Translations under genes and position numbers: made by a program
The notes under the pieces: generated by a model
Seen by the model: the letters and a program-made list of their open reading frames with translations, nothing else
What the model was told of the DNA's origin: nothing
Databases searched by the model: none
Source: Gemmataceae bacterium
Lineage (GTDB): Bacteria; Planctomycetota; Planctomycetia; Gemmatales; Gemmataceae
Length of the DNA stretch: 41,838 bases
NCBI GenBank assembly: GCA_019747655.1
Contig: JAIEQO010000166.1
Span: 1 to 41,838 of the forward strand
Reading direction: 5' to 3'
In this document: positions 898 to 41,695 of the stretch, piece after piece
Layout of the letters: every line of letters starts with the position of its first letter
Numbering within the stretch: the stretch's first letter is position 1

Positions 898-1008
898 AGT
901 TTCGAGTTTCGAGTTTGAAGTTTCGAGTTTCAAGTTCTTATCAGCCGCGTCGGCCACAGGTCGGGCGGTCGCGGCACACTCGAAACTTCAAACTCGAAAC
1001 TCGAAACT
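898..1008. repeat. 31-bp perfect inverted repeat built of a 7-nt unit
   Basis: Arms 898-928 and 978-1008 are perfectly complementary, with a 49-nt spacer. Each arm is built from copies of the heptamer AGTTTCG (or its complement), with one GTTTGAA variant. The right side has one more unit, to about 1015. It lies between the protease stop and the isomerase start on the minus strand and is strikingly AT-rich against the surrounding sequence. Confidence 0.93.
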
Positions 1009-9094: not shown

Positions 9095-9155
9095 GCACAG
9101 GCCTCCCGGCCTGTGCCACCGAGTCATTTGGTGGCACAGGCCGGGAGGCCTGTGC
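9095..9155. repeat. 26-bp perfect inverted repeat between divergent genes
   Basis: Arms 9095-9120 and 9130-9155 are perfectly complementary with a 9-nt loop. It lies between the divergent DUF1501 and tyrA genes, 9 nt before the DUF1501 start codon. Each arm also contains an internal palindrome (CAGGCCTCCCGGCCTG-like). Confidence 0.95.
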
Positions 9156-12916: not shown

Positions 12917-12963
12917 GGGGTATAATGCCAAGTGGCCGGCGCCGCCTCGGCGGCGGATCGGAC

Positions 12964-13064
12964 TAACCACAGAGTCACAGAGGACACCGAGCGGCCCCGA
13001 GCCGAGAGTTTGAATATTGATCTCGGTCTTTCTCTGCTCCGTGGTCTCTGTGACTCTGTGGTTA
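12964..13064. repeat. 29-bp inverted repeat downstream of purL
   Basis: Arms 12964-12992 and 13036-13064 pair at 26 of 29 positions, including 19 consecutive outer pairs, and a shorter CCGAGA/TCTCGG stem lies inside. The arms carry the CACAGAGTCACAGAG motif. The repeat fills most of the 183-nt gap between purL and the next gene. Confidence 0.9.
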
Positions 13065-13099
13065 ATCCTCCTTAACCGGTCCAACACGGGGGCCCGATC

Positions 13100-23886: not shown

Positions 23887-26800
23887 ATGTCGAAGTTCGC
23901 CCGGCGCCGCCGGCCGTCCGGCCGTCCGGCCCCCGCCGCCCCGGCCCGCCCCCGCCCGGCCTTCCGCCTCGAGCAGCTCGAGACCCGGGACACCCCGGCC
24001 ACCTTCGTCTGGACCGGGGCCGGGGCGGACAACCGGTGGGCGACCCCGGAGAACTGGCTGGGCGACCAGGCCCCGACCGGGCTGCCGGGCGAGCAGGCCG
24101 ACCTCGTCTTCCCGGCCGGGGCCGACCGGCCGACCAACCAGAACGACATCCCCTCCGGGACGTTCAACTCCCTGACGATCGGCGGGCCGAACTACCGGCT
24201 GATCGGGCTGGCCCTGACCCTCGGCATCCCCGGGGTGGTCGGGAGCGGGACCCTGGTGGTCAACGACGGGGCGGCCGGGAACAGCCTGAACATCGACACC
24301 ACCCTCGGGCTGGCGGCCGGCAGCGACCAGACGTTCACCGTCGGCACCGGGGCCGACCTGACCGTCACCTCCCGCCTGTCCGGGCCGCTCGGGGCGACCC
24401 TGACCAAGGACGGGGCCGGGACCCTGACCCTCTTGAACGACAACAGCGGGCTGACCGGGACGGTCCGGGTCGACGACGGCGGCGGGCGGCTGGTCATCGG
24501 CCACCGGTTCGCCCTCGGGAACACCGCCAACGGCACCACCGTCGGGGCCAACGCCACCCTCGGGGTGTCCAACGTGACCGGCCCGATCCTCGAGTCGCTG
24601 ACGCTCAACGGCCCCGGGGCGGACAACGCCGGGGCCCTGAACAACCTGGCCGGGAACAACGTCTGGGCCGGGCTCATCACCCTGGACAGCAACGCGACCA
24701 TCGGGGCGGTCACCGAAATTGTGAACGGGCGCGAAGAGCCCACGGTCCTGATCGTCACCGGCCAGATCCGGGACAGCAGCTCCGGGTACGACCTGACCAA
24801 GGAGGGGCGGGGCGAGGTCCGGCTGAACACCAACGACCCGGTCAACGACCCCTCCAACGCCGGGAACACCTACCGCGGCACCACCTTCGTCAACAACGGC
24901 ATCCTGACCGTCGGCCACCCCCGGGCCCTCGGCACGGCCGGGTCGCCGGCCAACGGGACGGTGGTGAGCGAGACCCTGACCGGGGCCGGCCAGCTCCGGC
25001 TGTCGGACGCCACCGCCTTCGGGTTCGCGGTGGTCGACGAGTACCTGACGCTCAACGGCGAGGGGATCGTCACCCTGCCCAACCGGGGCGCCCTCACCTC
25101 CGTCGGGGCGAACCACACCTGGGCCGGGCCGGTGGTGCTCGGCAGCCCGGCCCCGGACGGGCTGGACGTGACGGTCGGGGCCGAGGCCGGGCGGGAGCTG
25201 ACGATCACCGGCCAGGTGTCGTCCCCGAACGGCCCGTTCGTGCTGACCAAGCGGGACCGGGGGCGGGTGATCCTGGCCGGGGCCAACACCTACACCGGGG
25301 CCACCCAGGTGGTCGAGGGGGCCCTCCAGGCCCGGGACTCGAACGCCCTCGGGGCCCCGCTGAACACCGGGGCCGAGGTCCAGGTCGTCCAGGTCCTCGC
25401 CTACCCCGGGTTCCCGGCCCTCGGGTACCCCCCGGTCCCGGTCCCGTTCCGGCTCACCTTCCGCGGGTACACGACCCGGACGATCACCGTCACCCCGACC
25501 TTCAACCCGCTCCTGGCGGCCGACCTGGAGGGGGCCCTGAACGGCCTGCCGTCGATCGGCGGGGTCGGCGGGCGGGTGATGGTCACCGCCGCCCCGGTCC
25601 TGACCCGCAGCTCGTTCGGGGTGACCGAGGGTGGGACCCGGTTCACCGTCACCTTCGCCGGGTCCTTGATCGGGTCGGACATCGAGCCGCTGGCGATCGT
25701 GACCGACACCGGCCCGTTCGACTTCCTCCCGCCGTGGCCGATCTTCTACCCGTACCCGCACATCACCCGCCCCGGGTCGGTGTACACCGTCCAGGAGGGG
25801 TCCGACACCGCCGCCGAGGTCCAGTCCGTCCGGGTGACCAAGCCGACCGGGAATTTCCGGCTCGGGTTCAACGGGACCCCGCTCCAGTCGTTCCCCGTCG
25901 GGGCCACCGCCGCCCAACTGGCGGCCGCCCTGAACGCCGCCCAGGGGGTCCCGGCCGGCGGCCGGGTGGTCGTCGAGCGGGCCGAGCGGGCCAACGGGTT
26001 CGAGTACTTCATCACCTTCGACCGGGCCCTGTTCGGGGTGAACGTCCCGCAGGTCGTCGTCCAGGACCCGGACGACCCGAACGGGCAGCTCGACCCGCCG
26101 GCCGTCGCCGCCTTCACCCACCGCCAGGGCGGGGTCGAGGAGGTCCAGTCGGTCCGGATCACCAGCCCGACGCAGTCCGGGTCGTTCGGGCTGAACTTCT
26201 ACGGCCAGTCGCTGACCTTCCCGTTCGGCTACCCGGAGGCCTTGCTCGAGCGGGACCTGAACTTCCTGCCGTCCGTCGCCCGGCCGTTCGGCCCGTTCAA
26301 CCCGGCCGGGGCGGTCAAGGTCCGGCGGGCCACCCTGCCCGACGGGGACGAGTACTTCCTGACGTTCACGGGGGCGTTCGCGGGGGTCGACGTCGCCCCG
26401 ATCCGGGCGATCCCGGACGGCGGGGTCAAGGCCTTCGTCCAGACCCGCCGGGAGGGCGGCGGCGGCGGGGCCACCGTCCTCCGGCTGGAGAACAGCGCGG
26501 GCGGGTTCCGGGTGCAGTTCGGCGACTTCACCATCCCGCCCCTCCCCCCGGCCCCGCCGGCCCCCCAGCTCCCGGCCCCGCTGCCGTACAACATTCCGGC
26601 GTTCGGCGGCGACCCGACCGACCCGACCTCGAGCCTGGAGAACGCCCTCAACTTCCCGGGGTATACCTTCGGGCTGACCGGCCGGTTCGTGGTCCGGGAC
26701 GCCCTGGCCCCGGCCCCGGGCGGGCGGGAATTCCGGATCACCTGGGTCGGGGACGACGGGTTCAACGCCCCCCCGCCGCTGACCGCGACCGGGGAGAACG

Positions 26801-29800
26801 GGACCAAGGCGTTCGTCGTGCTGGACCGGCTGGGCAACGGCGGCGAACTGCAGGAGGTGCGGGTGACCGGGACGGCCGGCACCTTCACCGTGACCCTCAA
26901 CGCCCAGACCACCGCCGCCCTCCCGGTCGGGGCGTCGGCCGAGCGGGTCGAGAACGCCCTGAACGCCCTGCCGGGGCTGCCGGGGCGGGTGTCCGTACTC
27001 GCCTTCCCGGCCCCGCTCGGCGGGGACACGGTGTACCGGGTCAGCTTCTACGGCGGGTTCGTCGGGACCAACCCGGGGCAGATGACCGCGTCCGGGACGG
27101 GCGGGGCGGCCGCCACCGTCCGGACCGCCCGGGAGGGGTTCGGGGCGGCCGTCAGCGTGTTCGACGGGGCGTCGGTCGAACTCGGGGTCGAGGCGGCCGA
27201 CCCGGCCACCCCCCGGTTCGACCCCCGGGGCGTCGACCTGTGGGCCGACTCGGTCACCGCCGACCCGAACAAGCTGGCCGTCCGCAACCCGATCCACGCC
27301 GCCGGCCGCGGCTTCGGCCAGGCCGGGGCGGTCCGAAACGTGAGCGGGATCAACGACCTGCGGGGCGGGCTGCTCCTGGGGACGGAGGCCACCTTCGTCT
27401 CCACCATCGGGTCCGACCCGGACCCGCGGCCCGGCCACCCGACCGCCGACGCCTCGTACTTCACCAGCGACTACAGCCTGACCGTGTCCGGGCTGATCGA
27501 GGGGCCGGACAACGTCCGGCTGGCCAAGCGGGGCGGCGGGCACCTGATCCTGCCCCGGGCGAACACCTTCCAGGGGGCGTTCGGGATCGAAGAGGGGTGG
27601 GTGACGGTCCAGAACAACGACGCCCTCGGGGCCCCGCTCCTGTCGTTCGGGGAGGGCGCCCAGCCGGGCACCCAGGTGTTCACCGGGGCGGCCCTCCACC
27701 TCCGCCCGCTGACCCCCGGCCGGACCCTGACGCTGGACGAGCCGCTGACCCTCGGCGGGTCCGGCCCGGCCCACCCGTACGCCTACCTGAACCGGGCCGG
27801 GGCCCTGGTCAACCTCGGCGGGGCGAACACCTGGACCGGGGACATCCGGATCAAGGGGCCGGTCGGGATCGGGGCCGAGCAGGTCGCCCCGCGGACGGCC
27901 GACCCGCTGTCCGAGAGCGACCTGGCGGTGGCCACCACGATCGGCCCGGCCCCCCGGTCGTACACCTTCCGGACGTTCAACGAGACGGCGACCGGCGGGG
28001 ACGAGCTGCAGGCGTTCCTGTTCGACACCGGGGCGACCGGCGGGAACCTCACCCTGAACTACCAGTTCTTCGGGCGGGGGTGGCCGAACGAGCCGCCGGA
28101 CCAGGTGGTCGTCAACTACCCGCCGCGGCCGGCCGGGGGGGTGATCTACACCAGCGGCCCGGTCGTCAGCGACGGCCCGTACGGGCCGACCACCGTGACC
28201 GTCCCGTACGGCCCCGGCCCGAGCACCCTCGTCGAGGTGGTGGTCAACCCGGAGTACACCCCGACCGCCGACCACCTGAACGCCTGGCAGGTCACCGTCA
28301 CCCTCCCGGACACCGGGGACGGGGCGGTCAAGACCGACGGCCTCGTCAAGACCGGGTCGAAGCGGGTCCGGCTCCAGGGCGACGGGGCGTACTCCGGGGC
28401 GGTGGACGTCCAGGCCGGGACGCTGGTGGTCCAGCACGACGCGGCCCTCGGGCGGGCGGCGTCCGGCACCCTCACCAGCCAGCAGACGTACTCCCAGTCG
28501 ACCACCACGGTCGCGTCCGGGGCGGTGGTCGAGTTCGCCACCGGGGTGGCCCGCCTGAGCGGCGGGAACACGTCCGGGGTCCAGGTGTGGGACGAGCGGC
28601 TGGTCCTCGGCAGCCCGGCCCAGCAGGTGGCGGTGGCCGGCGGCGGCGGGACGTTCACCCTGACCTACCGCGGGCAGACGACCGCCTCCCTGCAGATCGG
28701 GGCCGCCGCGACCGAGGTGGCGGCCGCCCTGAACGCCCTCACCAACGTCCAGGCCGACGTCGGGTCGGTCTTCGTCACCCGGGCCGGGAACGTCTTCACC
28801 GTCGTCTTCGGCACCGCCCAGTCGACGCCCCCCGCGCCGCTGACCGCGGCCGCCTTCGGCGGGGCCGAGGTGGCCGTCAGCGGCGGCAGCTCCACGCTCG
28901 TCAACCTGGACGGGGACAACGCCTGGCGGGGCCCGGTGGCCCTGACCCGCGGGAACCGGATCGACACCCGGGCGAACTCCCGGCTGTCGCTGTTCGGCCC
29001 GGTCGGTGACGCCGACAACCCGGCGGCGGGCGGGTCCGACCTGGTCAAGCGGGGGGCCGGCGAGCTGCTCCTCGGCGGGGACAACACGTACCGCGGGCTG
29101 ACCCGGATCGACCAGGGGGTCGTGACCGCGATGAGCGGGACGGCGTTCGGGTCGACCGCCGGCGGGACCGAGGTGGCCGACGAGGCCCAGCTCCAGCTCC
29201 AGGGGAGCCTGACGGTGGCCGGGGAGCGGCTGACGGTCCGCGGGAACGGGCCGGACGCCGCCCAGTCGGTCCCGGCCCGGTGGTACAACACCGGCCCGGC
29301 CCCGACGAACAACGGGCTGGCCCCGCTCGGCCTGCCGACCACCGGCCGGATCACCAGCCTGGTGGCCGACCCGACCGACCCGAGCACCCTGTACCTGGCG
29401 TCCGCCGGGGGCGGGGCGTGGAAGACCCGGGACGGCGGCCGGACCTGGCTGCCGCTGTTCGACCAGACCCGCCAGCCGGCCGGGGTGCCGGGCGGGGCCC
29501 TCTTGTACGGCGGGTCGATCGCCGTCGCCCCGTCCAACCCCCGGGTCGTCTACTTCGCCACCGGCGAGACGAACGGCCAGGACACGTTCAAGAACATCTT
29601 CGACTCCTACGCCGGGTCGGGGGTGTACAAGTCGACCGACGCCGGCGAGACCTGGACCCTCCTGTTCGGGCCGGACGACGAGAACCCGCTGTCCGGCCAG
29701 TCGGTCAGCCGGGTGGTGGTGGACGACCTCGACCCGGACGTGGTGTACGCCGCGTCGGGCAGCCGGCCGAAGGTCACCGGGCTGCCCGGCGGGGTGGCCA

Positions 29801-32800
29801 ACCTGGCCACCGGCCGGCGGTTCCGGGTCTCGTTCGAGGGCCGACTGAAGGAGCTGAACCAGCCGCTGCTGGCGGCGGCCGACACCGGGGACGTGCAGGT
29901 GTTCGTCGAGACGGCCGTCAACGGCCGGCCCCCGATGGACGACCAGGACCCGCCCCTGCCCGGGGTGGACGAGGTCCAGTGGGTGACGGTGTACGGGGAC
30001 GGCGGGACGTTCACCCTGACCTTCAACGGGGTCACCACCGGCCCGATCCCGGTGACCATCAAGGCGACCGGCGGGACCTCCGGCAACCCGGCCGACCCGG
30101 ACGCCAGCCTCGACCTGGTCCTCAGCGCCCTGTCGTCGATCAAGGGGACGGACCCGGACCCGGCCAAGCAGGGCAAGGTGACGGTCGTCGAGCAGGTCGG
30201 CAAGCCGACCCCGGGGGTGTGGCGGTACTCCGGCACCCCGGGGGCGGACGGCCGGTGGCGGAACCTGACCGGGAACGACACCCTGTCGCTCAACCGGCGG
30301 CCGTTCAACCCGGACGACCCGGCACTGAGCGGGACCCCCGGGGCGGCCCCGTTCGACGCCCCGCCGAACGGGATCGGGCCGCCCCGCAACGCCGGCCCGG
30401 ACGACGACTACCGGATCGCCTTCCCCCAGGAGGACGCCATCTGGAGCGACCTGTTCGTGTTCGACGGGGTGCTCTACGCCGCCCTCGGGGAGTCCACCCA
30501 GCTCGGGTACCAGGACCCGGTCCTGGACGGGGAGGACCCGCCCCAGTACGCGGTCCGGAACGCGGTGTACAAGTCGGCCAACCCGCGGGACGACGCCCCG
30601 TCGTGGTACGTCGGGCCGCTCGGGGGTGGGCCCGACAGCCGGCCGAGCGGGCAGGGGGCGTTCCCGTACGGCGGGGTGGACGGCGACTTCGGGCGGAACG
30701 GCTGGATCAAGATCGCCGGGACCGGGCGGGAGCAGTGGGCGATCGTCACCGACCCGTCCATCCCGAACCCGGACCACCGGCTGCTCGACCTCCAGTTCAG
30801 CACCGACGGCGGGAACACCTGGACCCAGGCGCAGAACAACCCGCCGCTCCTGTTCGGCCCGACGTTCCTGACCGAGCAGGGGCGGTACGACGTGGCCATC
30901 GCCTACGACCCGACGGTCACCGCGGCCAGCCCGGTCGGGACGGTGTACGTGGCCGGCCGGGACCGCATCTACTTCTCGGTCGACCGCGGGCAGAACTGGG
31001 CGAGCATCAACCCGGACATCCGGGGCGGCGGGCCGGCCCGGTTCTTCCACAGCCTGGCCGTCGACCGGGACCGGAACCTGCTGGTCGGGACCGACGGCGG
31101 GGCCTGGCGGTACGACTTCGCCGCCGGCACCTTCGTCGACCTGGCCGGGACCCTGGGGGCCACCCAGCTCTTCTCGGCCGACCCGCACCCGACCGACCTC
31201 GGGCAGGCCATCGGCGGGGCCCGGAACACCGGCACCCAGTTCTTCCGCAACGGGACGGCCTGGGAGCGGGTGGACAGCGCCGCCGGCGAGAACACCACCG
31301 CCGTCCGGTACGACGGCCGCAACCCCCGGACGGCCTACGCCATCCGCAACGGCGACCTGCGGAAGACGACCGACGGGGGGATCACCTGGGCCTCCCTGGC
31401 GACCGGCACCCTGGGGATGTACGTCGACCCGGTCAACCCGGCCCGGCTGCTGGTCAGCGGGCTGTCGATCCGGGAGTCGGTCGCCGGCGGGGCCGGGCTG
31501 GTCAACCTGAACGCCCCGGTCGTCAAGGACCCGGTCACCGACGCGGTCGTCCCGTACACCTCGGTCGCCTCGGCCACCTTCCAGGGGCCGTTCGCCCCCG
31601 ACCCGGACTTCCCGACGGTCACCGACGTGCTGGCCAACACCTACAACCCGTCGACCATCTACGCGACCGAGGGGGCCAAGCTCTTCCTCACCAAGAACCG
31701 CGGGGTGAGCTGGGTCAACCGGACCCCGGCCGCGGCCCTCGGCGGGACCATCACCGACATCGCGGTGGACCAGAGCAACCGGGACACCGTGTACCTGGCC
31801 GTCAGCCGCCCGACCGGGGTGGCCGGCGGGCGGGTGTTCCGGTCGACCGACGCCGGCCGGACCTGGGTGGACCTGTCCGGGGTGGCCGACCCGGCCCCGG
31901 CCGACGAGGACGTCGGGCCGCTCCCGAAGGTCCCGGTCTGGCGGCTGGCCGTCGACCCCCGGCCGGACGGGACGGCCGTGTACCTCGGGAACGACACCGG
32001 GGTGTGGCGGCTCTCGGACGCCCGGAACGCCGCCCCGAACACCCTGGCCTGGAGCCGGGTCGGGGCCGGGCTGCCCCGGGTGGCCGTCCGCGACATCGTC
32101 CTGAACCAGACCCTGAACACCCTGACCGCCGCCTCCTACGGCCGCGGCATGTTCCAGTACTTCCTGCCCGACCCGGAGGGCAACTCCGGGGCCGTCCGGG
32201 CGGTCAGCGGGTCGTCCGTCTGGACCGGGGAGGTGGTCCTGGCCGGGCCGACCACCCTCGGGGTGGCCGGCACCCAGCAGGTGAGCAACGGGATCGCCAC
32301 CGCCGGGCTGAACATCCTCGGGACGGTGTCCGACGGCGTCGCCGGGGCGAACCACCCGGTCCGCAAGATCGGCGGCGGCACCCTCACCCTGTCCGGCCCG
32401 AACACCTACGGCGGGCGGACCGACGTGCTCGCCGGGGCCCTGTCGGTCAACAACCCCAAGGCCCTCGGGGCTGCCGGGCCGGCGGCCAACACCGTCGTGT
32501 CCGACGGGGCCGTCCTCGAACTCCGCAGCGACCTGGAGGCCGAGCCGGTCCAACTGACCGGCCGCGGGCTGAAGTTCAACGACCGGTTCACCGGGTCGCT
32601 CCGGAACGTCAGCAACGACAACGTCTACACCGGGGTCCTGACCCTGGCCTCGGACGTGACCATCGGGGCCGACTCCGGGACCACCCTGACGATCGGCCGG
32701 AAGGCCGGGCTGTCCGGGACCGGGACGATCACCGACGGGGCCGGCTCGTTCAGCATCACCAAGGAACTGCCCGGGACCCTGGCCCTGGCGGCCGCCAACT

Positions 32801-35800
32801 CCCACGACGGGCTGACCACCGTGGCCGCCGGGGCCCTCCAGGTCCAGCACCCGAACGCCCTCGGCGGGGTCGCCCAGGGCACCGTGGTGCTCGACGGGGC
32901 CCAGCTCCAGGTCGCCCGGAACGCCTTCGGCGGGGCCGACACGGCCGTCGCCGGCGAGCGGCTGACCCTGTCCGGGACCGGCATCAACCGGACCGGGGCC
33001 CTGCTCGGGCTGGCCGGGAGTAACTCCTACGGCGGGCCGATCGACTTCGCCTTCCGGCCGAACTCGTTCCCGCCGACCAACCCCGGCGGGCAGATCGCCG
33101 TCGGGGCGGCCGGGCCGGACGACGTGCTGACCGTCGACGCCGTCCTCGGGCCGAACGCCGCCGACCCCGGCGACGCCGACGACCCGCGGGAGACGTACAG
33201 CCTCCTCAAGGTCGGGTCCGGGACGGTCGTGCTGCCCCGGGCCAACACCTACGTCGGCGGCACCTTCGTCGAGGGCGGGGCCCTCCGCCTGCGGAACAGC
33301 GCCGCCCTCGGGTCGGCCGCCCCGTCCCCGGAGGTCCAGCAGGTCACGGTCGTCGGCACCACCGGTAATTTCACCCTGGCGGTCACGGCCAAGGGGCAGA
33401 CCCGGACGACGGCCGCCATCCAGGTCGGGGCGTCCGCCGCGACGGTCCAGACCGAGCTGGAGGCCATGTCGAACGTCGACCCCGGCGACGTGTTCGTCCG
33501 CAAGGCCGACATCACCGGCGGGGCCGCCTACACCCTGTTCTTCGGCGGGTCGCTGGCGGCCGCGGACGTCCCCCAGATCGTCGGCGCCCCGGCCGCCAAC
33601 CCGGCGGTCAGCGTGGCCACGGTCCGCAACTTCGGCCTCGGCACCGTCGTGTCGGCCGGGGCCACCCTCGAACTCGACGGGTTGACCGCCGCCCAGCCGG
33701 TCAACGAGCTGCTGACCATCAACGGCGACGGGGTCGGCGGGCAGGGGGCCCTCCGGGCGTTCGCCGGGCTGACCAACACCTACGCCGGCAAGGTCACCCT
33801 CGGGTCGAACGCCAGCCTCGGGGCGGCGGCCAACTCCGCCCTGACCGTCACCGGGCGGGTGACCGACCCGAGCCCGGCCCCCGTCCCGCCGTCCCGGCTC
33901 CGCAAGGCCGGGGCCGGGCTGGTCGAGCTGACCGCCGACAACCCGATCGCCGGCCGGATCGTGATCGACGACGGGGTCCTGCGGGTGGCCAACCCGCTCG
34001 CCCTCGGGAGCACCGGGCCGGAGGTCCAGACCGTCCTGGTGACCGGGACGAACGGGACGTTCGCCCTCACCTTCAACGGGGCGACCACCCCGTTCCTGCC
34101 GTTCGACGCGACCGCCGGCGCCGTCCAGACGGCCCTCAACAACCTGTCCACCGTCGGCGGGGTCGGCGGGTCGGCGGCGGTCGGCGGGGTCCCGTCGGCC
34201 GGCGGCACCCTCTTCACCATCGCCTTCGGGCTGAACCTCGGGGCCACGGACCTGCCGCCGATCACCACCCAGACGACCGGGGCGGCCTCGGCCTTCCCGA
34301 CCACCCTCCGGGACGGCCCGGAGGGGACGGTGGTGAACCCGGGCGGGACCCTCCAGATCGCCGGCAACAAGGCGTTCACCCAGGAAGCCCTGACCCTCCG
34401 CGGGGCCGGGTTCCAGGGCCAGGGGGCGCTGAACAACGCCGCCGGGACCAACTCCTGGGACACCCCGATCACCCTGGCCGAGAACGCCACCATCGGGGCC
34501 GCCGCGGGCACCACCCTGACCCTGTCCCAGCCGACCTCGGACGGCGGGAACAAGTACGACCTGGATGTCGTCGGCGCCGGGACGGTGGCGTTCACCGCCT
34601 CCGCCGACAACCAGTACACCGGGACCACCACCGTCCGCGGCGGGGTCCTCCGGCTGTCCCAGCCGGCCGGGGTGGCGATCCAGGGGGCCCTGGTGGTCGG
34701 CGGCGGGGCGACCGCCGCCAGCGTCCGGGCGACGACGAACAACCAGGTGGCCGACGCGTCCACGGTCACGGTCAACCCGAACGGGACGTTCGACCTGAAC
34801 GGCCAGACCGACGCCGTCGGGCTGGTGACGGCCAACGGCGGGACCGACCCGCTGGTCCCGGCCGGGGTCGTCCGGACCGGGGCGAACGGCAAGCTGACCG
34901 CCCCCGGGCTGGCCCTGCCGGGCGGGACGGTGGACATCGGCACCGGCGGCCGGGTGGTCCTCGGCGGGAACGTCACCGCCACCTCGACCGCCGGCCACGC
35001 CGCGGCCATCCTCGGGCCCGGCTCCCTCGACCTCAACGGCACCGACCGGACGCTGAACGTGGCCGACGGGCCGGCGGCCGTGGACGTGCAGGTCGGGGCC
35101 CTCCTGGCCACCCCGACGACGGCCAAGCTGACCAAGGACGGGGCCGGGCGGGCGGCCTTCTCCGCCGCCGCGACCACCGCCGTGGTCGTCGCCGTTCGTA
35201 ACGGGGACGTGCAGGTCGACACCACCCTCGGGGCGGTCGAGCTGACCGCGGCCGGGGCCAGCCTGAGCGGGACCGGGACGGCCGGGGCGGTCCGCGGGGC
35301 GACCCTGTCGGCCCCGGCCGTCGGGACCGTCGCCCCGGGGAACAACTGGGCGGCCAACCCGGCCGGCATCCTCCGGGCCGGGACGACCCGGCTGGGGGCC
35401 CAGTCCACCTTCTTCGTCAACCTGGCCGGCCGGCTGGTCGGAGACCCGGTCGCCGGGACCCACTACGACCAGCTCCAGGTGAGCGGGGCGGTGGTCCTCG
35501 GCGGGGCGAAGCTCGAAGGCACGTTCGGCACCGGCATCCAGAACCTCGACCGGTTCACCATCATCACCGCCACCGGCGGGGTGACCGGCCGGTTCGCCGA
35601 GCCGAACGGGGCCGGGATCGTGTACATCCAGGGGCAGAAGTTCAACGTCCTCTACTCGGCCACCGAGGTGGTGCTGGAGAAGGTCAAGGCGAAGGCGGAG
35701 GTCGGCGTCGTCACCTCGGCCAACCCGTCCACCCTCGACCAGCCGGTGACGTTCACCGCCACCGTCACCCCGGAGTCCGGGGCGACCCTGACCCCGAGCA

Positions 35801-38800
35801 CGGTGACGTTCTTCGTGGACGGGTCGGCGGTGGCCAGCGTCGCCCTGACCGTCCTGGCGAACGGGTCCGGGACGGCCGCCCTCACCCTCCCGGACGCCGG
35901 GCTCGGGCTGCCGGCCCTGACCGGCGGCAGCCACGCGGTCTCGGCCGTCTTCAACGGGGACGCCGACACCTTCAACCCCGCCTCGGTCAACCTGGCGGCC
36001 GACCAGGTGGTCGAGGTGCCGGACATCGGCGACCTGACCGTCACCGCCCCGACCGCCACCCCGCGGTTCATCTCGCCGAACAACAGCCCGGGCGTCCAGG
36101 ACGCGCTCACCGGGACGGCCACCGTCACCGGCGAGCGGGCCCGGGCGACCTGGACGGTCACGGTCAAGAACGCCGGCGGCACCGCCGTCCGGACGATCAC
36201 CGGGACGTTCTTCGGCAACGGCCAGGTCCCGCCGGTCAACACCTTCCCGATCAACGCCGTCTGGGACGGCAAGGACGACGCCGGGAACTTCGTCGCGGAC
36301 GGGGCGTACGCGGTGACGGTGGCGTTCACCGACGAGTACGACCCGACCCCGGCCACCCCGCGGGACCAGACCGCGGCCGTCGGGGTGACGGTGGACAACA
36401 CCTCCCCGGCCCTGTCCGGGGTGACCGTCCCGACCCGGCGGTTCCGCCCCGGGACGACCGCCCGGCTGCTCGACGCGACCATCACCGAGGCCAACCTGAC
36501 CGGCTGGACGGTCACGCTTCGGAACGCCGGCGGGGCGGTCGTCCGGACGTTCACCGGGACCGGCACGACGGCGGCCGTCGACTTCGACGGGACCGACGGG
36601 GCCGGGAACGACCTGGCGGACGGGGTGTACGCGGTCGAGCTGGTCGTCACCGACGCGGCCGGGAACACGGCCGCGGCCGGCAACCTCGACACCGTCCTGG
36701 TGCTGGAGGTCGAGCCGACCGCCGACCCGCTGACCGGCAGCCCGGCGTTCATCTCGCCGAACAACAGCCTCGGGACCCAGGACACGGCGGCCGTCTCGTC
36801 GACGGTCCGGGACGTGTCGGCCCCGACGGCGACCTGGACGGTCACGGTCAAGAACGCCGCCGGCACGGCCGTCCGGACCGTCACCCGGAACGCGGTCATC
36901 AACACCGCCACCAAGACCTTCCCGATCGCCTTCACCTGGGACGGCAAGACGGACGGCGGGTCGTTCGTCCCGGACGGGGTGTACACGATCTCGGCCGGGT
37001 TCACCGCCTTCTACGCCGCCGGGTTCGACGTGACCGGGTCGGCCGGGTCGGTGACGGTGACGGTCGACAACCTCGCCCCGACCGCCGGGCCGGCCGCGGC
37101 CGCGCCCCGGGTGATCGCCCCGGGGACGGCCGGGTCGGTGCCGACCGAGACCGACCTGACCGGGACCGTCGGCGACGGGGTGAACGGCAACCTCCGGGAC
37201 TGGACGCTGACCGTCAAGAACGCCGGCGGGGCGGTCGTCCGGACGTTCACCGGGACCGGCACGGCGGCGGCCGCGACGTTCGACGGGCGGGACGCCGGCG
37301 GGGCGGTCCTGCCGGACGGGACGTACACCGTCGAGCTGACCGCCCGGGACCAGGCCGGGAACACGGCGACCGGGACGGCCGGTACGGTGGTCGTCCTGAC
37401 CCAGCCGCCGACCGTCACCCTGGTCTCGAACACGCCGACGGTGTACGGCCAGACGATCACCCTGACGGCCACCGTCACCACCGCCGCGGCGGTCCGGGAC
37501 CTCCTGAACGGGGTGTCGGTCGACTTCGTCCGCGGCGGGGTGCCGCTCGGGTCGGCCCCGCTGGCCCTGGTTGGCGGGGAGTACAAGGCCACGATCACCG
37601 TCCCGACCTTCGCCGCCGGGACGTATGCCGACCTGTCCGCGTCGTCGGCCGGGACGGACGTGTTCCTGGCCGCGGCGTCGGCCGCCGCCACCCACGTCGT
37701 CACCCCGGCCCCGCTGACGGTCCGGGCGACGAACGCGACGAAGGTGTACGGGGCGGCCGTGCCGGCCCTGGCGTTCACGGCCGAGGGGCTGGTCAACGGC
37801 GACACCGCGGCCGTCGTGGTGTCCGGCAGCCCGGCGACGACCGCGGCCCCGGGCAGCGATGTCGGAACCTACCCGATCACCCAGGGGACGGTGGCGGCGA
37901 ACGGGAACTACACCCTGACGTTCGCCCCCGCCACCCTCTCCGTCACCCCGGCCCCGCTCCTGGTCCGGGCGAACGACGCCAGCCGGGTGGTCGGGACGCC
38001 CAACCCGCCGTTCACCGCGTCGTACCAGGGCCTGGTCCTGAACGACACCCCGGCGGTGGTGAACGGTCTGATCCTCTCCACCCCGGCGACGACCAGCAGC
38101 CGGGTCGGGACCTACCCGGTCGTGGCCGGCGGGGCCCCGACCGCCCGGAACTACGCGATCACCGTGGCCGACGGGACGCTGAGCGTGGTCCCGGCCCCGA
38201 CCGACGTGGTGCTCGGGGGCGGGACGGGGGCCGGCGGCGGGGTCCGGGTGTTCGCCCCGGACGGGAGCGTCAAGTCGGCCTTCAACCCGTTCCCCGGGTT
38301 CACCGGGTCGATCCGGACGGCCTCGGCCGACTTCAACCGGGACGGGGTGGACGACGTCGTGGTGGTCACCGGGCCCGGGGTGCCGGTCCAGGTGGTCGTC
38401 CTGGACGGGGCCGGCGGGCCGGAGCTGTTCCGCGACAGCCCGTACGGGGACTTCGCCGGCGGGGCGTTCGCGGCCGTCGGGGACGTGGACGGGGACGGCC
38501 AGCCGGACCTGGTCGTCACCCCGGACGAGGGCGGCGGCCCGCGGGTGGTGATGTACCGCGGCGGGGACTACGAGCCGGTGCTGAGCTACCTCGGGATCGA
38601 CGACGAGAACTTCCGCGGCGGGGCCCGGGCGGCGGTCGGCGACATGAACGGCGACGGGTTCGCCGAGATCGCGGTGTCGGCCGGGTTCGGCGGCGGCCCG
38701 CGGCTGTCCATCTGGGACGGGGCGGGGCTGGCCCGGGGCCAGTTCCGGACCCTGGTGAACGACTTCTTCACCTTCGAGAGCCGGCTGCGGAACGGGACCT

Positions 38801-39162
38801 ACGCGGCCATCGGGGACGTGAACGCCGACGGGTTCGGGGACCTGATCGTCGGGGCCGGCCCCGGCGGCGGGCCGCGGGTCCTGGTGCTCGACGGGCGGAC
38901 CATCCTCGACCGCGGCGGGGCGGCGGCGGTGGCCGCCCCGGTGGCCAACTTCTTCGCCGGGAACGTGAACAACCGGGGCGGGGTGCGGGTGGCCGCCAAG
39001 TCGCTCGACGGCGACCTGTCGGCCGACGTGGTGACCGGGCCGGGCGAGGGCGACCGGTCGGTGGCCACGGCGTACCGCGGGTCGGCCCTGGCCCGGGGGG
39101 CGGTCGAGGCCCTGTACGACCTGCCCGGGTTCGACGACCTGAACGGGGTGTACGTCGGCTGA
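23887..39162 (+). CDS. Giant multidomain surface protein (5091 residues)
   Basis: Domains in order: a basic N-terminus with the 'FRLEQLETRDTPA' motif (26-38) found in planctomycete surface proteins; autotransporter-associated beta-strand repeats (e.g. 'LTKDGAGTLTLLNDNSG', 'LTKRDRGRVILAGANTYTG') across about 40-1800 and 2760-3930; a BNR/sortilin-type propeller (about 1800-2760; 'AWKTRDGGRTWLPLF', 'VYKSTDAGETWTLLF'); an Ig-like domain (about 3940-4045); four FlgD-like/Ig domains as two pairs (about 4054-4505; 'WDGKDDAGNFVADGAY'); another Ig-like domain; two MBG-like domains (about 4610-4770); C-terminal FG-GAP repeats with calcium-type loops ('DFNRDGVDD', 'DVDGDGQPD', 'DVNADGFGD'). There is no outer-membrane beta-barrel, no classical signal peptide, and no cysteine noticed on reading. 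Adhesion or cell-surface binding is an inference. Confidence 0.92.
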   Translation: MSKFARRRRPSGRPAPAAPARPRPAFRLEQLETRDTPATFVWTGAGADNRWATPENWLGDQAPTGLPGEQADLVFPAGADRPTNQNDIPSGTFNSLTIGGPNYRLIGLALTLGIPGVVGSGTLVVNDGAAGNSLNIDTTLGLAAGSDQTFTVGTGADLTVTSRLSGPLGATLTKDGAGTLTLLNDNSGLTGTVRVDDGGGRLVIGHRFALGNTANGTTVGANATLGVSNVTGPILESLTLNGPGADNAGALNNLAGNNVWAGLITLDSNATIGAVTEIVNGREEPTVLIVTGQIRDSSSGYDLTKEGRGEVRLNTNDPVNDPSNAGNTYRGTTFVNNGILTVGHPRALGTAGSPANGTVVSETLTGAGQLRLSDATAFGFAVVDEYLTLNGEGIVTLPNRGALTSVGANHTWAGPVVLGSPAPDGLDVTVGAEAGRELTITGQVSSPNGPFVLTKRDRGRVILAGANTYTGATQVVEGALQARDSNALGAPLNTGAEVQVVQVLAYPGFPALGYPPVPVPFRLTFRGYTTRTITVTPTFNPLLAADLEGALNGLPSIGGVGGRVMVTAAPVLTRSSFGVTEGGTRFTVTFAGSLIGSDIEPLAIVTDTGPFDFLPPWPIFYPYPHITRPGSVYTVQEGSDTAAEVQSVRVTKPTGNFRLGFNGTPLQSFPVGATAAQLAAALNAAQGVPAGGRVVVERAERANGFEYFITFDRALFGVNVPQVVVQDPDDPNGQLDPPAVAAFTHRQGGVEEVQSVRITSPTQSGSFGLNFYGQSLTFPFGYPEALLERDLNFLPSVARPFGPFNPAGAVKVRRATLPDGDEYFLTFTGAFAGVDVAPIRAIPDGGVKAFVQTRREGGGGGATVLRLENSAGGFRVQFGDFTIPPLPPAPPAPQLPAPLPYNIPAFGGDPTDPTSSLENALNFPGYTFGLTGRFVVRDALAPAPGGREFRITWVGDDGFNAPPPLTATGENGTKAFVVLDRLGNGGELQEVRVTGTAGTFTVTLNAQTTAALPVGASAERVENALNALPGLPGRVSVLAFPAPLGGDTVYRVSFYGGFVGTNPGQMTASGTGGAAATVRTAREGFGAAVSVFDGASVELGVEAADPATPRFDPRGVDLWADSVTADPNKLAVRNPIHAAGRGFGQAGAVRNVSGINDLRGGLLLGTEATFVSTIGSDPDPRPGHPTADASYFTSDYSLTVSGLIEGPDNVRLAKRGGGHLILPRANTFQGAFGIEEGWVTVQNNDALGAPLLSFGEGAQPGTQVFTGAALHLRPLTPGRTLTLDEPLTLGGSGPAHPYAYLNRAGALVNLGGANTWTGDIRIKGPVGIGAEQVAPRTADPLSESDLAVATTIGPAPRSYTFRTFNETATGGDELQAFLFDTGATGGNLTLNYQFFGRGWPNEPPDQVVVNYPPRPAGGVIYTSGPVVSDGPYGPTTVTVPYGPGPSTLVEVVVNPEYTPTADHLNAWQVTVTLPDTGDGAVKTDGLVKTGSKRVRLQGDGAYSGAVDVQAGTLVVQHDAALGRAASGTLTSQQTYSQSTTTVASGAVVEFATGVARLSGGNTSGVQVWDERLVLGSPAQQVAVAGGGGTFTLTYRGQTTASLQIGAAATEVAAALNALTNVQADVGSVFVTRAGNVFTVVFGTAQSTPPAPLTAAAFGGAEVAVSGGSSTLVNLDGDNAWRGPVALTRGNRIDTRANSRLSLFGPVGDADNPAAGGSDLVKRGAGELLLGGDNTYRGLTRIDQGVVTAMSGTAFGSTAGGTEVADEAQLQLQGSLTVAGERLTVRGNGPDAAQSVPARWYNTGPAPTNNGLAPLGLPTTGRITSLVADPTDPSTLYLASAGGGAWKTRDGGRTWLPLFDQTRQPAGVPGGALLYGGSIAVAPSNPRVVYFATGETNGQDTFKNIFDSYAGSGVYKSTDAGETWTLLFGPDDENPLSGQSVSRVVVDDLDPDVVYAASGSRPKVTGLPGGVANLATGRRFRVSFEGRLKELNQPLLAAADTGDVQVFVETAVNGRPPMDDQDPPLPGVDEVQWVTVYGDGGTFTLTFNGVTTGPIPVTIKATGGTSGNPADPDASLDLVLSALSSIKGTDPDPAKQGKVTVVEQVGKPTPGVWRYSGTPGADGRWRNLTGNDTLSLNRRPFNPDDPALSGTPGAAPFDAPPNGIGPPRNAGPDDDYRIAFPQEDAIWSDLFVFDGVLYAALGESTQLGYQDPVLDGEDPPQYAVRNAVYKSANPRDDAPSWYVGPLGGGPDSRPSGQGAFPYGGVDGDFGRNGWIKIAGTGREQWAIVTDPSIPNPDHRLLDLQFSTDGGNTWTQAQNNPPLLFGPTFLTEQGRYDVAIAYDPTVTAASPVGTVYVAGRDRIYFSVDRGQNWASINPDIRGGGPARFFHSLAVDRDRNLLVGTDGGAWRYDFAAGTFVDLAGTLGATQLFSADPHPTDLGQAIGGARNTGTQFFRNGTAWERVDSAAGENTTAVRYDGRNPRTAYAIRNGDLRKTTDGGITWASLATGTLGMYVDPVNPARLLVSGLSIRESVAGGAGLVNLNAPVVKDPVTDAVVPYTSVASATFQGPFAPDPDFPTVTDVLANTYNPSTIYATEGAKLFLTKNRGVSWVNRTPAAALGGTITDIAVDQSNRDTVYLAVSRPTGVAGGRVFRSTDAGRTWVDLSGVADPAPADEDVGPLPKVPVWRLAVDPRPDGTAVYLGNDTGVWRLSDARNAAPNTLAWSRVGAGLPRVAVRDIVLNQTLNTLTAASYGRGMFQYFLPDPEGNSGAVRAVSGSSVWTGEVVLAGPTTLGVAGTQQVSNGIATAGLNILGTVSDGVAGANHPVRKIGGGTLTLSGPNTYGGRTDVLAGALSVNNPKALGAAGPAANTVVSDGAVLELRSDLEAEPVQLTGRGLKFNDRFTGSLRNVSNDNVYTGVLTLASDVTIGADSGTTLTIGRKAGLSGTGTITDGAGSFSITKELPGTLALAAANSHDGLTTVAAGALQVQHPNALGGVAQGTVVLDGAQLQVARNAFGGADTAVAGERLTLSGTGINRTGALLGLAGSNSYGGPIDFAFRPNSFPPTNPGGQIAVGAAGPDDVLTVDAVLGPNAADPGDADDPRETYSLLKVGSGTVVLPRANTYVGGTFVEGGALRLRNSAALGSAAPSPEVQQVTVVGTTGNFTLAVTAKGQTRTTAAIQVGASAATVQTELEAMSNVDPGDVFVRKADITGGAAYTLFFGGSLAAADVPQIVGAPAANPAVSVATVRNFGLGTVVSAGATLELDGLTAAQPVNELLTINGDGVGGQGALRAFAGLTNTYAGKVTLGSNASLGAAANSALTVTGRVTDPSPAPVPPSRLRKAGAGLVELTADNPIAGRIVIDDGVLRVANPLALGSTGPEVQTVLVTGTNGTFALTFNGATTPFLPFDATAGAVQTALNNLSTVGGVGGSAAVGGVPSAGGTLFTIAFGLNLGATDLPPITTQTTGAASAFPTTLRDGPEGTVVNPGGTLQIAGNKAFTQEALTLRGAGFQGQGALNNAAGTNSWDTPITLAENATIGAAAGTTLTLSQPTSDGGNKYDLDVVGAGTVAFTASADNQYTGTTTVRGGVLRLSQPAGVAIQGALVVGGGATAASVRATTNNQVADASTVTVNPNGTFDLNGQTDAVGLVTANGGTDPLVPAGVVRTGANGKLTAPGLALPGGTVDIGTGGRVVLGGNVTATSTAGHAAAILGPGSLDLNGTDRTLNVADGPAAVDVQVGALLATPTTAKLTKDGAGRAAFSAAATTAVVVAVRNGDVQVDTTLGAVELTAAGASLSGTGTAGAVRGATLSAPAVGTVAPGNNWAANPAGILRAGTTRLGAQSTFFVNLAGRLVGDPVAGTHYDQLQVSGAVVLGGAKLEGTFGTGIQNLDRFTIITATGGVTGRFAEPNGAGIVYIQGQKFNVLYSATEVVLEKVKAKAEVGVVTSANPSTLDQPVTFTATVTPESGATLTPSTVTFFVDGSAVASVALTVLANGSGTAALTLPDAGLGLPALTGGSHAVSAVFNGDADTFNPASVNLAADQVVEVPDIGDLTVTAPTATPRFISPNNSPGVQDALTGTATVTGERARATWTVTVKNAGGTAVRTITGTFFGNGQVPPVNTFPINAVWDGKDDAGNFVADGAYAVTVAFTDEYDPTPATPRDQTAAVGVTVDNTSPALSGVTVPTRRFRPGTTARLLDATITEANLTGWTVTLRNAGGAVVRTFTGTGTTAAVDFDGTDGAGNDLADGVYAVELVVTDAAGNTAAAGNLDTVLVLEVEPTADPLTGSPAFISPNNSLGTQDTAAVSSTVRDVSAPTATWTVTVKNAAGTAVRTVTRNAVINTATKTFPIAFTWDGKTDGGSFVPDGVYTISAGFTAFYAAGFDVTGSAGSVTVTVDNLAPTAGPAAAAPRVIAPGTAGSVPTETDLTGTVGDGVNGNLRDWTLTVKNAGGAVVRTFTGTGTAAAATFDGRDAGGAVLPDGTYTVELTARDQAGNTATGTAGTVVVLTQPPTVTLVSNTPTVYGQTITLTATVTTAAAVRDLLNGVSVDFVRGGVPLGSAPLALVGGEYKATITVPTFAAGTYADLSASSAGTDVFLAAASAAATHVVTPAPLTVRATNATKVYGAAVPALAFTAEGLVNGDTAAVVVSGSPATTAAPGSDVGTYPITQGTVAANGNYTLTFAPATLSVTPAPLLVRANDASRVVGTPNPPFTASYQGLVLNDTPAVVNGLILSTPATTSSRVGTYPVVAGGAPTARNYAITVADGTLSVVPAPTDVVLGGGTGAGGGVRVFAPDGSVKSAFNPFPGFTGSIRTASADFNRDGVDDVVVVTGPGVPVQVVVLDGAGGPELFRDSPYGDFAGGAFAAVGDVDGDGQPDLVVTPDEGGGPRVVMYRGGDYEPVLSYLGIDDENFRGGARAAVGDMNGDGFAEIAVSAGFGGGPRLSIWDGAGLARGQFRTLVNDFFTFESRLRNGTYAAIGDVNADGFGDLIVGAGPGGGPRVLVLDGRTILDRGGAAAVAAPVANFFAGNVNNRGGVRVAAKSLDGDLSADVVTGPGEGDRSVATAYRGSALARGAVEALYDLPGFDDLNGVYVG
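25372..34310 (+). repeat. Nine interspersed copies of an approximately 80-120-residue 'EVQ' module
   Basis: Within the giant gene, units start near 25372, 25811, 26134, 26470, 26845, 28620, 29966, 33328 and 34018. The common pattern is EVQxVxVxGTxGxFxLxFNG, then a Thr-rich turn, GA(T/S)AxxVxxALN(A/N)L, a Gly/Val strand, and YxVxFxGxxxGxDV. Divergence is high, so this is an old protein-level repeat, with units placed between beta-strand repeats. The fourth and seventh copies are the most divergent. Confidence 0.72.
36046..37400 (+). repeat. Tandem duplication of a two-domain Ig/FlgD-like unit
   Basis: Two units of roughly 690 nt: 36046-36715 and 36715-37400. Each has an A domain opening with 'FISPNNS' and a B domain with 'NAGGAVVRTFTGTGT'. 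Bases 36522-36567 and 37218-37263 are identical over 46 nt, indicating recent duplication or gene conversion within an otherwise diverged pair. Confidence 0.8.
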
Positions 39163-39168
39163 CGCCGG

Positions 39169-39257
39169 AATGACGAAGGACGAATGACCCACCAATGACG
39201 AAGGAAGACCGGGTCTGTCTTCCTTCGTCATTGGTGGGTCATTCGTCCTTCGTCATT
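39169..39257. repeat. 41-bp perfect inverted repeat, copy A (left of methyltransferase gene)
   Basis: Arms 39169-39209 and 39217-39257 are perfectly complementary with a 7-nt loop. The arm is built of ACGAATG/ACGAAGG-type units of about 7 nt. It begins 6 nt after the stop of the giant gene. The same repeat recurs at 39971-40058. Confidence 0.96.
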
Positions 39258-39345
39258 TCCGCCCCGCCCCTGTCCAACCGGCCGGCCGGCCGGGATAATC
39301 GGCGGTGCCCGCGTCGGGCCGTTCCCATCCGCCGGAGGACGCACC

Positions 39346-39957
39346 GTGAGGACGCTGTTCGCTGCCGCCCTGGGGCTGGCCGTGGCCCTGGCCGCCGGGT
39401 TCCGCCCGGCCGCCGCCGACGACACCAAGAAGGAGAAGCCGGAGATCGAGGTCGTCTACGTCCCGACCAAGCCGGAGGTGGTCAAGAAGATGCTCGTGCT
39501 GGCCGCCGTCAAGGAGGGGGACACCGTCTACGACCTCGGGTGCGGGGACGGCCGGATCGCCATCTCGGCGGTCAAGGACTTCAAGGCCGGCCGGGGGCTG
39601 GGGATCGACTACAACCCGGAGCGGCTGAAGGACTGCGAGAAGAGCGTGGCCGACGCCAAGCTGTCGCCCGAGCAGCAGAAGAAGCTGACCTTCAAGCAGG
39701 GCGACGTGCTCAAGATGAAGCCGGAAGACTTCAAGGACGTGGACGTGGTGACCCTGTACCTGTACCAGTCGGTGAACGTCCGGCTCAAGCCGGTGCTCAA
39801 GGAGGGGCTCAAGCCCGGGGCCCGGGTGGTGTCGAACACGTTCAGCATGGGCGAGGACTGGCCGCCGGAGAAGACCGAGCGGGTGAAGGCCAAGACCGAC
39901 TACGGGGACACCGAGTACACCGTCTACCTGTGGACGATCAAGGGCGACAAGAAGTAG
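39346..39957 (+). CDS. Secreted class I SAM-methyltransferase-fold protein
   Basis: This 203-residue protein starts at the GTG at 39346 with GGAGG 7 nt upstream. A Sec signal ('LFAAALGLAVALAAGFRPAAA') precedes a methyltransferase fold: motif I 'VYDLGCGDGRIAIS' (residues 61-74), 'GLGIDYNPERLKDCEKS' with the acidic residue of motif II, 'LTFKQGDVLKM', and 'DVDVVTLYLYQSVNVRLKP' (motif IV region). Export is odd because SAM is cytoplasmic; the protein may be a binding protein or be membrane-associated. It stands alone between two copies of one inverted repeat. Confidence 0.82.
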   Translation: MRTLFAAALGLAVALAAGFRPAAADDTKKEKPEIEVVYVPTKPEVVKKMLVLAAVKEGDTVYDLGCGDGRIAISAVKDFKAGRGLGIDYNPERLKDCEKSVADAKLSPEQQKKLTFKQGDVLKMKPEDFKDVDVVTLYLYQSVNVRLKPVLKEGLKPGARVVSNTFSMGEDWPPEKTERVKAKTDYGDTEYTVYLWTIKGDKK

Positions 39958-39970
39958 CCCCCTCTGGGAG

Positions 39971-40058
39971 AATGCCGAAGGACGAATGACCCACCAATGA
40001 CGAAGGAAAACCACCCGGTCGTCCTTCGTCATTGGTGGGTCATTCGTCCTTCGGCATT
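39971..40058. repeat. 37-bp perfect inverted repeat, copy B (right of methyltransferase gene)
   Basis: Arms 39971-40007 and 40022-40058 are perfectly complementary with a 14-nt loop. It matches copy A at 39169-39257 except for one base pair: A-T there (39173/39253), C-G here (39975/40054), so pairing is kept. It starts 14 nt after the methyltransferase stop. Confidence 0.96.
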
Positions 40059-40108: not shown

Positions 40109-41695
40109 ATGCCGACCACCTACGACGCGATCATCATCGGGGCCGGGCACAACGGGCTCGTCACCGCCGCCTACCTGGCCCGGGCCGGGTACACGGTCCT
40201 GGTCCTCGAACGCCGCGAGATCGTCGGCGGGTGCTGCATCACCGAGGAGGTCTGGCCCGGGTTCAAGGTCTCCTCCGCGGCCTACGTCAACAGCCTGCTG
40301 CGGCCGGAGATCATCAAGGAACTGGAGCTGAAGAAGTACGGGTTCGAGATGCTCCCCCGCAGCCCGTCGTCGTTCACCCCGTTCCCGGACGGCCGCTACC
40401 TGATGATGGGCCCGGACCACGAGATGACGCTCAAGGAGATCGGCAAGTTCAGCCGCAAGGACGCCGAAAACTACCCCAAGTACGAGGCCATGCTGACCCG
40501 GGTGGCCGACTTCCTGGAACCGATGCTCACCCAAACCCCGCCCGACCCGTTCTCGAACCGCCTCGGCGACGTCTGGAAGCTCGGCAAGATGGGCTTCGGG
40601 TTCCGCGGCCTCGGCCGGGACGTGGCGACGGACGCCGTCGAGATCATGACCGGGGCGGCCCGGCCGATCCTCGACCGGTGGTTCGAGTCGGACGAGCTGA
40701 AGGCGACGATCGCCACCGACGCCGTCATCGGGGCGTTCGCCGCCCCGTCGCAGCCGGGAACGGCCTACGTCCTGTTCCACCACGTCATGGGCGAGTGCAA
40801 CGGGGTCCGCGGGGTGTGGGGCTACGTCCGCGGCGGGATGGGAACGATCTCGAACAGCCTCGCGGCCGCCGCGAAGGTGAAGGGGGCCGAGATCAAGACG
40901 AACGCCGAGGTCGGCCGCATCCTGGTCCGGGGCGGGCAGGCGGTCGGGGTGGCCCTCAAGGACGGGACCGAGTTCCACGCCCAGCGGGTGATCTCCGGGG
41001 CCGACGCCAACGTCACCTTCGTGAAGCTGATGGACACGGCCGACCTGCCGGCCGACTTCCTGGCCCGCGTCAAGACGATCGACTACTCGTCGGCCACGGT
41101 GAAGATCAACGTGGCCCTCGCCGAGCCGCCGCAGTTCACCGCCCTGCCGGGCACCGGCGTCGGCCCGCAGCACCACGGGACGATGCACGTCTGCCCCAGC
41201 ATGGACTACATCGAGCACGCCTACGACGACGCCAAGTACGGCCGGCCGGCCGGCAACCCGATGCTCGAATGCACGATGGCCACGGCCCTGGACAGCACCC
41301 TGGCCCCGCCGGGCCAGCACATCCTGAGCATGTTCGTGCAGTACGCCCCGTACCACCTGAAGGGGACGACCTGGGACGCCGAGCGGGACCGCTTCGCGGA
41401 TCGCTGCTTCGACATCCTGAACGAGTACGCCCCGAACTTCAAGAAGTCGGTGCTGGGCCGGCAGGTGTTCGCCCCGCCGGACATGGAGAAGGCGTGGGGC
41501 ATCACCGGCGGGAACATCATGCAGGGGTCGATGAGCCTGTCGAGCATGTCGAGCTTCCGGCCGGTGGCCGGGTACGCCAACTACCGGACGCCGGTCCGCG
41601 GCCTCTACATGTGCGGGGCGGCAACCCACCCGGGGGGCGGGGTCATGGGCGCCTGCGGCCTGAACGCGGCCCGGGAAATCCTCCGGGACGGGTGA
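40109..41695 (+). CDS. FAD-dependent oxidoreductase, phytoene desaturase/PYROXD2-like
   Basis: This 528-residue protein has an N-terminal FAD-binding loop 'YDAIIIGAGHNGLVTAAYLA' (Gly11-x-Gly13-x-x-Gly16), then 'VLVLERREIVGGCCITEEVW' with the ribose-binding Glu and the GG doublet of the amine-oxidase/phytoene-desaturase superfamily. The C-terminal FAD signature is 'YMCGAATHPGGGVMGACGLN'. The overall layout ('WPGFKVSSAAYVNSLLRPEI', 'GTAYVLFHHVMGE') fits the PYROXD2-like group rather than carotenoid-pathway CrtI. The substrate is unknown. The start is ATG at 40109; no strong Shine-Dalgarno sequence is seen. It lies just after hairpin copy B. Confidence 0.88.
   Translation: MPTTYDAIIIGAGHNGLVTAAYLARAGYTVLVLERREIVGGCCITEEVWPGFKVSSAAYVNSLLRPEIIKELELKKYGFEMLPRSPSSFTPFPDGRYLMMGPDHEMTLKEIGKFSRKDAENYPKYEAMLTRVADFLEPMLTQTPPDPFSNRLGDVWKLGKMGFGFRGLGRDVATDAVEIMTGAARPILDRWFESDELKATIATDAVIGAFAAPSQPGTAYVLFHHVMGECNGVRGVWGYVRGGMGTISNSLAAAAKVKGAEIKTNAEVGRILVRGGQAVGVALKDGTEFHAQRVISGADANVTFVKLMDTADLPADFLARVKTIDYSSATVKINVALAEPPQFTALPGTGVGPQHHGTMHVCPSMDYIEHAYDDAKYGRPAGNPMLECTMATALDSTLAPPGQHILSMFVQYAPYHLKGTTWDAERDRFADRCFDILNEYAPNFKKSVLGRQVFAPPDMEKAWGITGGNIMQGSMSLSSMSSFRPVAGYANYRTPVRGLYMCGAATHPGGGVMGACGLNAAREILRDG

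Follow-up and report, generated by a model that had tools for sequence, protein, structure and literature searches.

The palindromes on either side of a methyltransferase gene in the 41,838-nucleotide stretch of DNA analysed here (the window) are likely ORF-less members of an element family whose full-length form carries a PF05635 gene. This full-length element would consist of a 23S_rRNA_IVP/four-helix-bundle gene (PF05635, TIGR02436) placed between degenerate AATGACG/AATGACC arrays, and the two palindromes, hairpins A and B, would be IVS-like elements located outside rRNA, in short intergenic gaps right after stop codons. The family is present in many copies, these copies lie between genes and share their arms, the arms go together with the protein, and the two arms of a copy covary. 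The features of the window that concern these points are the following:

898..1008, no strand assigned: third heptamer hairpin of the window, (AGTTTCG)n arms, 49 nt loop, between two minus-strand genes
23887..39162, plus strand: giant 5091-aa ORF, a host gene with PATR, MBG, Ig-like and FG-GAP repeats, which stops 6 nt before hairpin A
39169..39257, no strand assigned: hairpin A, an ORF-less palindrome with arms 39169-39209 and 39217-39257 made of degenerate AATGACG/AATGACC heptamers
39346..39957, plus strand: methyltransferase-fold gene (PF13847) between hairpins A and B, conserved in relatives without this hairpin; a host gene, outside the element
39971..40058, no strand assigned: hairpin B, an ORF-less palindrome of the family of A with arms 39971-40007 and 40022-40058 and C-G at the fifth pair
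40109..41695, plus strand: FAD-dependent oxidoreductase gene (PF01593) located 3' of hairpin B, a conserved neighbour of the methyltransferase gene

Hairpins A and B and the gene between them

A first-pass annotation of this DNA had reported two hairpins with the same arms, and both are present where it placed them. The arms of hairpin A (41 bp, 7 nt loop) and of hairpin B (37 bp, 14 nt loop) are perfectly paired; both palindromes end in AATG/CATT and their overall length is 88-89 nt. Folded as RNA they reach -85.6 kcal/mol (z -14.3) and -83.8 kcal/mol (z -15.6) respectively, a value equalled by none of 200 shuffles in either case, and at the threshold applied the palindrome scan returned no palindrome in 100 kb of shuffled sequence. 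The paired change described at position 5 of the arm is also confirmed: A(39173)-T(39253) in hairpin A corresponds to C(39975)-G(40054) in hairpin B, both stems being perfect. The AATGCC outer end of hairpin B recurs in further copies of the family, on both arms of L060, L065 and L067 and on one arm of L016. Thus the C-G state of hairpin B may be an inherited subfamily variant rather than a local change.

Both hairpins sit between protein genes, outside any rRNA gene, and an Rfam search of the window gave no match. The T run of an intrinsic terminator is absent 3' of either stem, hairpin A being followed by tccgcccc and hairpin B by tcgccgcc; GC-rich hosts may manage without a T run in their terminators.

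One gene bracketed by two copies of one family could suggest a mobile cassette, as the first-pass annotation had proposed, the check being the presence or absence of the gene and both hairpins as one unit in related genomes. Matches to the methyltransferase were found in most relatives, and in nine of those read the gene is adjacent to the same oxidoreductase gene; the hairpin motif of A and B was sought in the stretches read of these nine loci and none was found. In the closest relative (G004) the methyltransferase gene also follows the same giant ORF, and both gaps of the locus hold palindromes unrelated to A and B. The gene is therefore present, and the gene order kept, in relatives without the hairpin. 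Moreover, with at least 56 copies in the genome, two copies close together are unremarkable. The cassette is hardly credible in these conditions: hairpins A and B are independent of the methyltransferase gene.

One of the two G004 palindromes resembles a repeat that flanks a Y1 transposase gene in the window's own genome, G000 (83/115). The one at the site of hairpin A is of the same kind as a GC-rich palindrome at 9095-9155 of the window (GCACAGGCCTCCCGGCCTGTGCCACC), which it matches at 50 of 65 positions. GC-rich hairpins also occupy the methyltransferase-oxidoreductase gap in G005 and G003. Thus the same gap holds hairpins of different origin in different species. As a separate observation, the strand opposite the giant ORF has an open frame of 5255 aa that mirrors it.

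The hairpin family and the genes found between such arms

A DNA search of G000 (7.3 Mb, 1113 contigs) located the family at about 40 places, a pattern search found 98 arm motifs in forward and 97 in reverse orientation, and the paired copies obtained number at least 56. Genes were called with a home-made codon-usage caller, whose calls for the methyltransferase and the oxidoreductase were exact. None of the 56 copies lies inside a called gene: 41 are between tandem genes, 7 between convergent and 3 between divergent genes, and 5 are at a contig edge. In the tandem pairs the centre of the hairpin is at a median of 51 nt past the upstream stop (IQR 40-58), and is closer to this stop than to the next start in 38 of 41 cases. 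The family was found in five of the six genomes searched in the genus, and in two other genera of Gemmataceae. A wider scan of contigs for hairpins matched scattered taxa; these hits were left out of the family, our rough expectation being that outside Gemmataceae they are mostly ordinary terminator-type hairpins.

No target-site duplication was found at the ends of the family copies, where direct repeats are near the level of shuffled pairs. An inner GAAGAC motif recurs in 5 of 42 cases on the left and 8 of 42 on the right compared with 1.7% per background window, an enrichment that is suggestive only and on which nothing here is based. The hairpin of L003 follows a paralogue of the end of the giant ORF, with 72.5% DNA identity to L001 over 870 nt including the hairpin; the left flank of 25 nt is identical in these two loci.

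A single copy in G000 bears a gene. In this copy, L098 (G000:C887:6034-6572), the arms match the family arms at 47 of 49 positions but are 442 nt apart, and they enclose a 135-aa ORF that starts directly at the arm. The protein matches PF05635 23S_rRNA_IVP (E 1.7e-8), the TIGR02436 four helix bundle protein (E 6.8e-15) and PDB entry 2rld (E 4.4e-10); given these family and structure matches we take the fold as settled. Read by eye, it retains RxxxSxxxNxxE, the motif reported for the family being GxxRxxxSxxxNxxE (PMC3936711).

A search of 95 Gemmataceae genomes gave five proteins 63-100% identical to that of L098 (in G000, G002, G001, G059 and G015). Each of the five genes is preceded, on the same strand, by AATGAC repeats, and four have them on both sides, the fifth contig being partly N-masked in the flank. 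Nine proteins that are 38-42% identical have no AATGAC arms, save one single hexamer. In G005 and G058, which carry hairpins of the family, no protein close to that of L098 was found. Two loci considered for the same arm family, L197 and L210, were rejected: their arms are on the opposite strand and their proteins belong to other clades.

To ask the same of PF05635 genes generally, both flanks of each gene were aligned, one to the reverse complement of the other, with swapped flanks as the null and p<0.01 as the threshold. Inverted arms are significant at 38 of 48 loci in eight Gemmataceae genomes, at 25 of 29 across Planctomycetota, and at 22 of 29 in a set drawn mainly from other phyla (Chloroflexi, cyanobacteria, Bacteroidota, Verrucomicrobia, Acidobacteria, one proteobacterium and some further planctomycetes). 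For comparison, 95% of the arm scores of random segments are at or below 13 and their maximum is 17. The arms are periodic: over 84 arms the autocorrelation is 0.607 at lag 7 and 0.59 at lag 14 for a baseline of about 0.29, and the best period is 7 in 54 arms and 8 in 18. Furthermore, the k-mer similarity of the arms follows the similarity of the proteins (Mantel r -0.41, P 0.0002; +0.05 with the wrong strand). The protein of L210 is nevertheless about 80% identical to those of L198 and L205 while its arms are quite different, and so arms can diverge quickly or be swapped.

The arm of the window hairpin at 898-1008, whose family is distinct from that of A and B, matches the arm of a four-helix-bundle (IVP) gene of G004 at 36 of 39 positions. 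In a Lysobacteraceae MAG an IVP gene is flanked by GGGAATC arms; no gene-less GGGAATC hairpin turned up when one Lysobacteraceae genome was scanned with strict criteria. Among the PF05635 loci of G000-G005, G058 and G059 we also observed two protein clades opposed in orientation relative to the upstream gene, the ORF being antisense in 10 of 12 cases in one clade and sense in 27 of 29 in the other (P 3e-6); these clades were read by eye, post hoc, from an approximate tree.

PF13366 genes (GxxExxY, PDDEXK-type; L313-L334) are a second gene type located between hairpin-forming inverted repeats. Their arms have a longer, non-heptamer pattern, e.g. CACAGAGGACACAGAG. At 20 of the 22 loci the score exceeds the random maximum of 17, and one reaches p<0.01 by swapped flanks, a null that is inflated here because arms are common to several loci. 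The window itself holds, at 12960-13068, a hairpin with CACAGAG-type arms that match L326 at 29 of 32 positions, i.e. arms of the type flanking PF13366/GxxExxY genes. Finally, at two Y1_Tnp loci of G000 (L021 and L022) long GC-rich inverted repeats flank the gene, an organisation resembling described TIRYT arrangements.

Covariation of the arms and alternative readings

Among ungapped copies of equal length there are 154 paired co-changes, which are pairwise position comparisons among related copies and not 154 events, where 14.3 are expected if the arms are independent; 12 columns co-vary, and 161 changes affect a single arm. In a set of 8 distinct 36-bp stems, 7 pairs are changed on both sides, for a total of 16 cells; shuffles give 6.7 (0/500). 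The covariation score of this set is 0.140 compared with 0.050 for the shuffled stems, none of 500 being as high, and slid controls do not exceed 0.048. Thus the compensatory pattern first seen in two hairpins, for which a covariation test on further copies had been advised, is real across the family.

Two readings of this pattern had been offered, selection on the structure or correction of one arm by the other, and it is the second that is better supported. RNA selection is expected to pass through G-U, while correction at the DNA level, with one arm rewritten from its partner, is not. Of the 288 cells of the eight-stem set, 12 are broken and none is one-sided; there is no pair with variation confined to one side. 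Paired co-changes without one-sided wobble thus favour arm-to-arm DNA correction. Sense-strand mismatches comprise 4 G-U and 6 A-C, a small count that is insufficient alone to decide. The numbers of repeat modules are correlated between the two arms (Fisher P 0.0026) and are unequal in 19 of 56 copies. We propose that the arms are kept alike by an incomplete arm-to-arm correction acting on top of repeat-unit slippage. Their identity would arise mainly from DNA-level correction, by template switching or conversion between the inverted arms, and the gain and loss of repeat units would also shape them. L012 (G000:C368:1-169) is a nested palindrome whose two arms (76 nt, 2 mismatches) contain the same duplicated inner copy, as would be expected had one arm been replaced by a copy of its partner. 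As a caution, selection on RNA need not be the cause when a bacterial palindrome shows perfect compensatory changes.

The hairpins could nevertheless be host RNA elements, i.e. terminators or stabilisers of mRNA 3' ends, with a stem kept by RNA selection and showing ordinary covariation. Their very stable folds, their location right after stops and nearer the upstream gene in nearly all tandem pairs, and the GC-rich hairpins that G005 and G003 have in the methyltransferase-oxidoreductase gap all agree with this. But a terminator does not need an arm sequence conserved over dozens of copies, nor is it expected that arms remain near-identical when 442 nt apart around an ORF, or that three copies lie between divergent genes. 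Given also the broken cells occurring without one-sided wobble cells and the mismatch counts, this reading seems unlikely, and a terminator role may be a secondary effect of the hairpins. It seems very unlikely that a Y1 tyrosine transposase (RAYT/TIRYT) moves the hairpins as repeats of the REP/TIR type, the arms around the four-helix-bundle gene being incidental. Y1 transposase genes are indeed present in G000, two of the three clear ones between long inverted repeats, and TIRYTs have been described (PMC3733652). But the flanks read at the six Y1_Tnp loci of G000 contain no AATGAC arms, their repeats being GC-rich and of another kind, and across genomes the arms follow the clade of the four-helix-bundle protein.

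That heptamer palindromes are primary, produced by slippage and template switching, and that they merely receive insertions of the four-helix-bundle gene, with no cooperation between protein and arm, would account for hairpins in genomes without the matching protein clade and for close proteins with different arms (L210). We think this doubtful, because random insertion would predict neither that arm sequence and strand track the protein clade nor that the association spans several phyla. The reading of A and B as ORF-less members of a PF05635 element family has its own points against it: the single gene-bearing copy of G000, the unequal arms of 19 of 56 copies, G005 and G058 without a close L098 protein, and the arms of L210. 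According to this preferred reading, the gene-less palindromes would probably owe their spread to the gene-bearing element, of which they would be satellites, and would persist where a hairpin at the 3' end of the transcript is tolerated or useful. Mobility itself we infer, since the data show neither a movement nor a target-site duplication.

A wider proposal, which we put forward tentatively and towards which we do not lean, is that PF05635 genes define small mobile elements outside rRNA throughout bacteria. Each clade would recognise its own heptamer array, the protein or its transcript would move both gene-bearing and gene-less palindromes, and many unexplained heptanucleotide repeats would be arms or relics of such elements. 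The link joins the unexplained heptamer repeats of bacteria to a little-understood protein family. It would predict a recognition code relating protein clade to 7-nt unit, and the gene-less hairpins could be used as markers to follow movement.

Comparison with known systems

By definition, REPs and REPINs are palindromes of 20-40 bp that bear GTAG or CGTC as a tag at one of their ends (PMC3733652). As with REP, REPIN and TIR sequences (RAYT, TIRYT), the present family consists of intergenic palindromes that are present in many copies and have a protein-coding element as partner (PMC3733652). However, A and B end in AATG/CATT, have long perfect arms and measure 88-89 nt as a whole. The gene-less copies share their terminal repeats with a gene-bearing form, as MITEs do with an autonomous element, for which L098 would be a candidate, but target-site duplications were not found and the long form has no known transposase.

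Heptamers have been described in Xanthomonas, where GGGAATC inverted repeats form 70-75 convergent pairs able to adopt stem-loops (PMC4692102), and in Beggiatoaceae and cyanobacteria (Nostoc) (PMC4679880); heptanucleotide repeats are over-represented in many bacteria, without explanation (PMC4692102). All these are, like the arms studied here, intergenic tandem repeats of 7 nt, but of a different unit. Text searches of PMC4692102 and PMC4679880 returned no four-helix-bundle or 23S/S23 term, and no earlier report linking heptamer repeats to a PF05635 protein was found in the literature searched, which leaves out most subscription literature.

There is also a parallel in organisation with the intervening sequences (IVS) of 23S rRNA, which are cut out by RNase III. 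IVS elements with and without an ORF are known in rRNA genes (PMC4990558 for Coxiella; PMC11270868 for CPR rRNA insertions), and the 23S_rRNA_IVP protein is described as functionally uncharacterised (PMC11270868). Unlike them, the present hairpins are numerous, have arms built of degenerate heptamers and lie outside rRNA, 3' of the stop codons of ordinary genes. As in these elements, terminal inverted repeats form one long stem, and the loop is either short, as in the ORF-less A and B, or holds an S23p/23S_rRNA_IVP ORF, as in L098.
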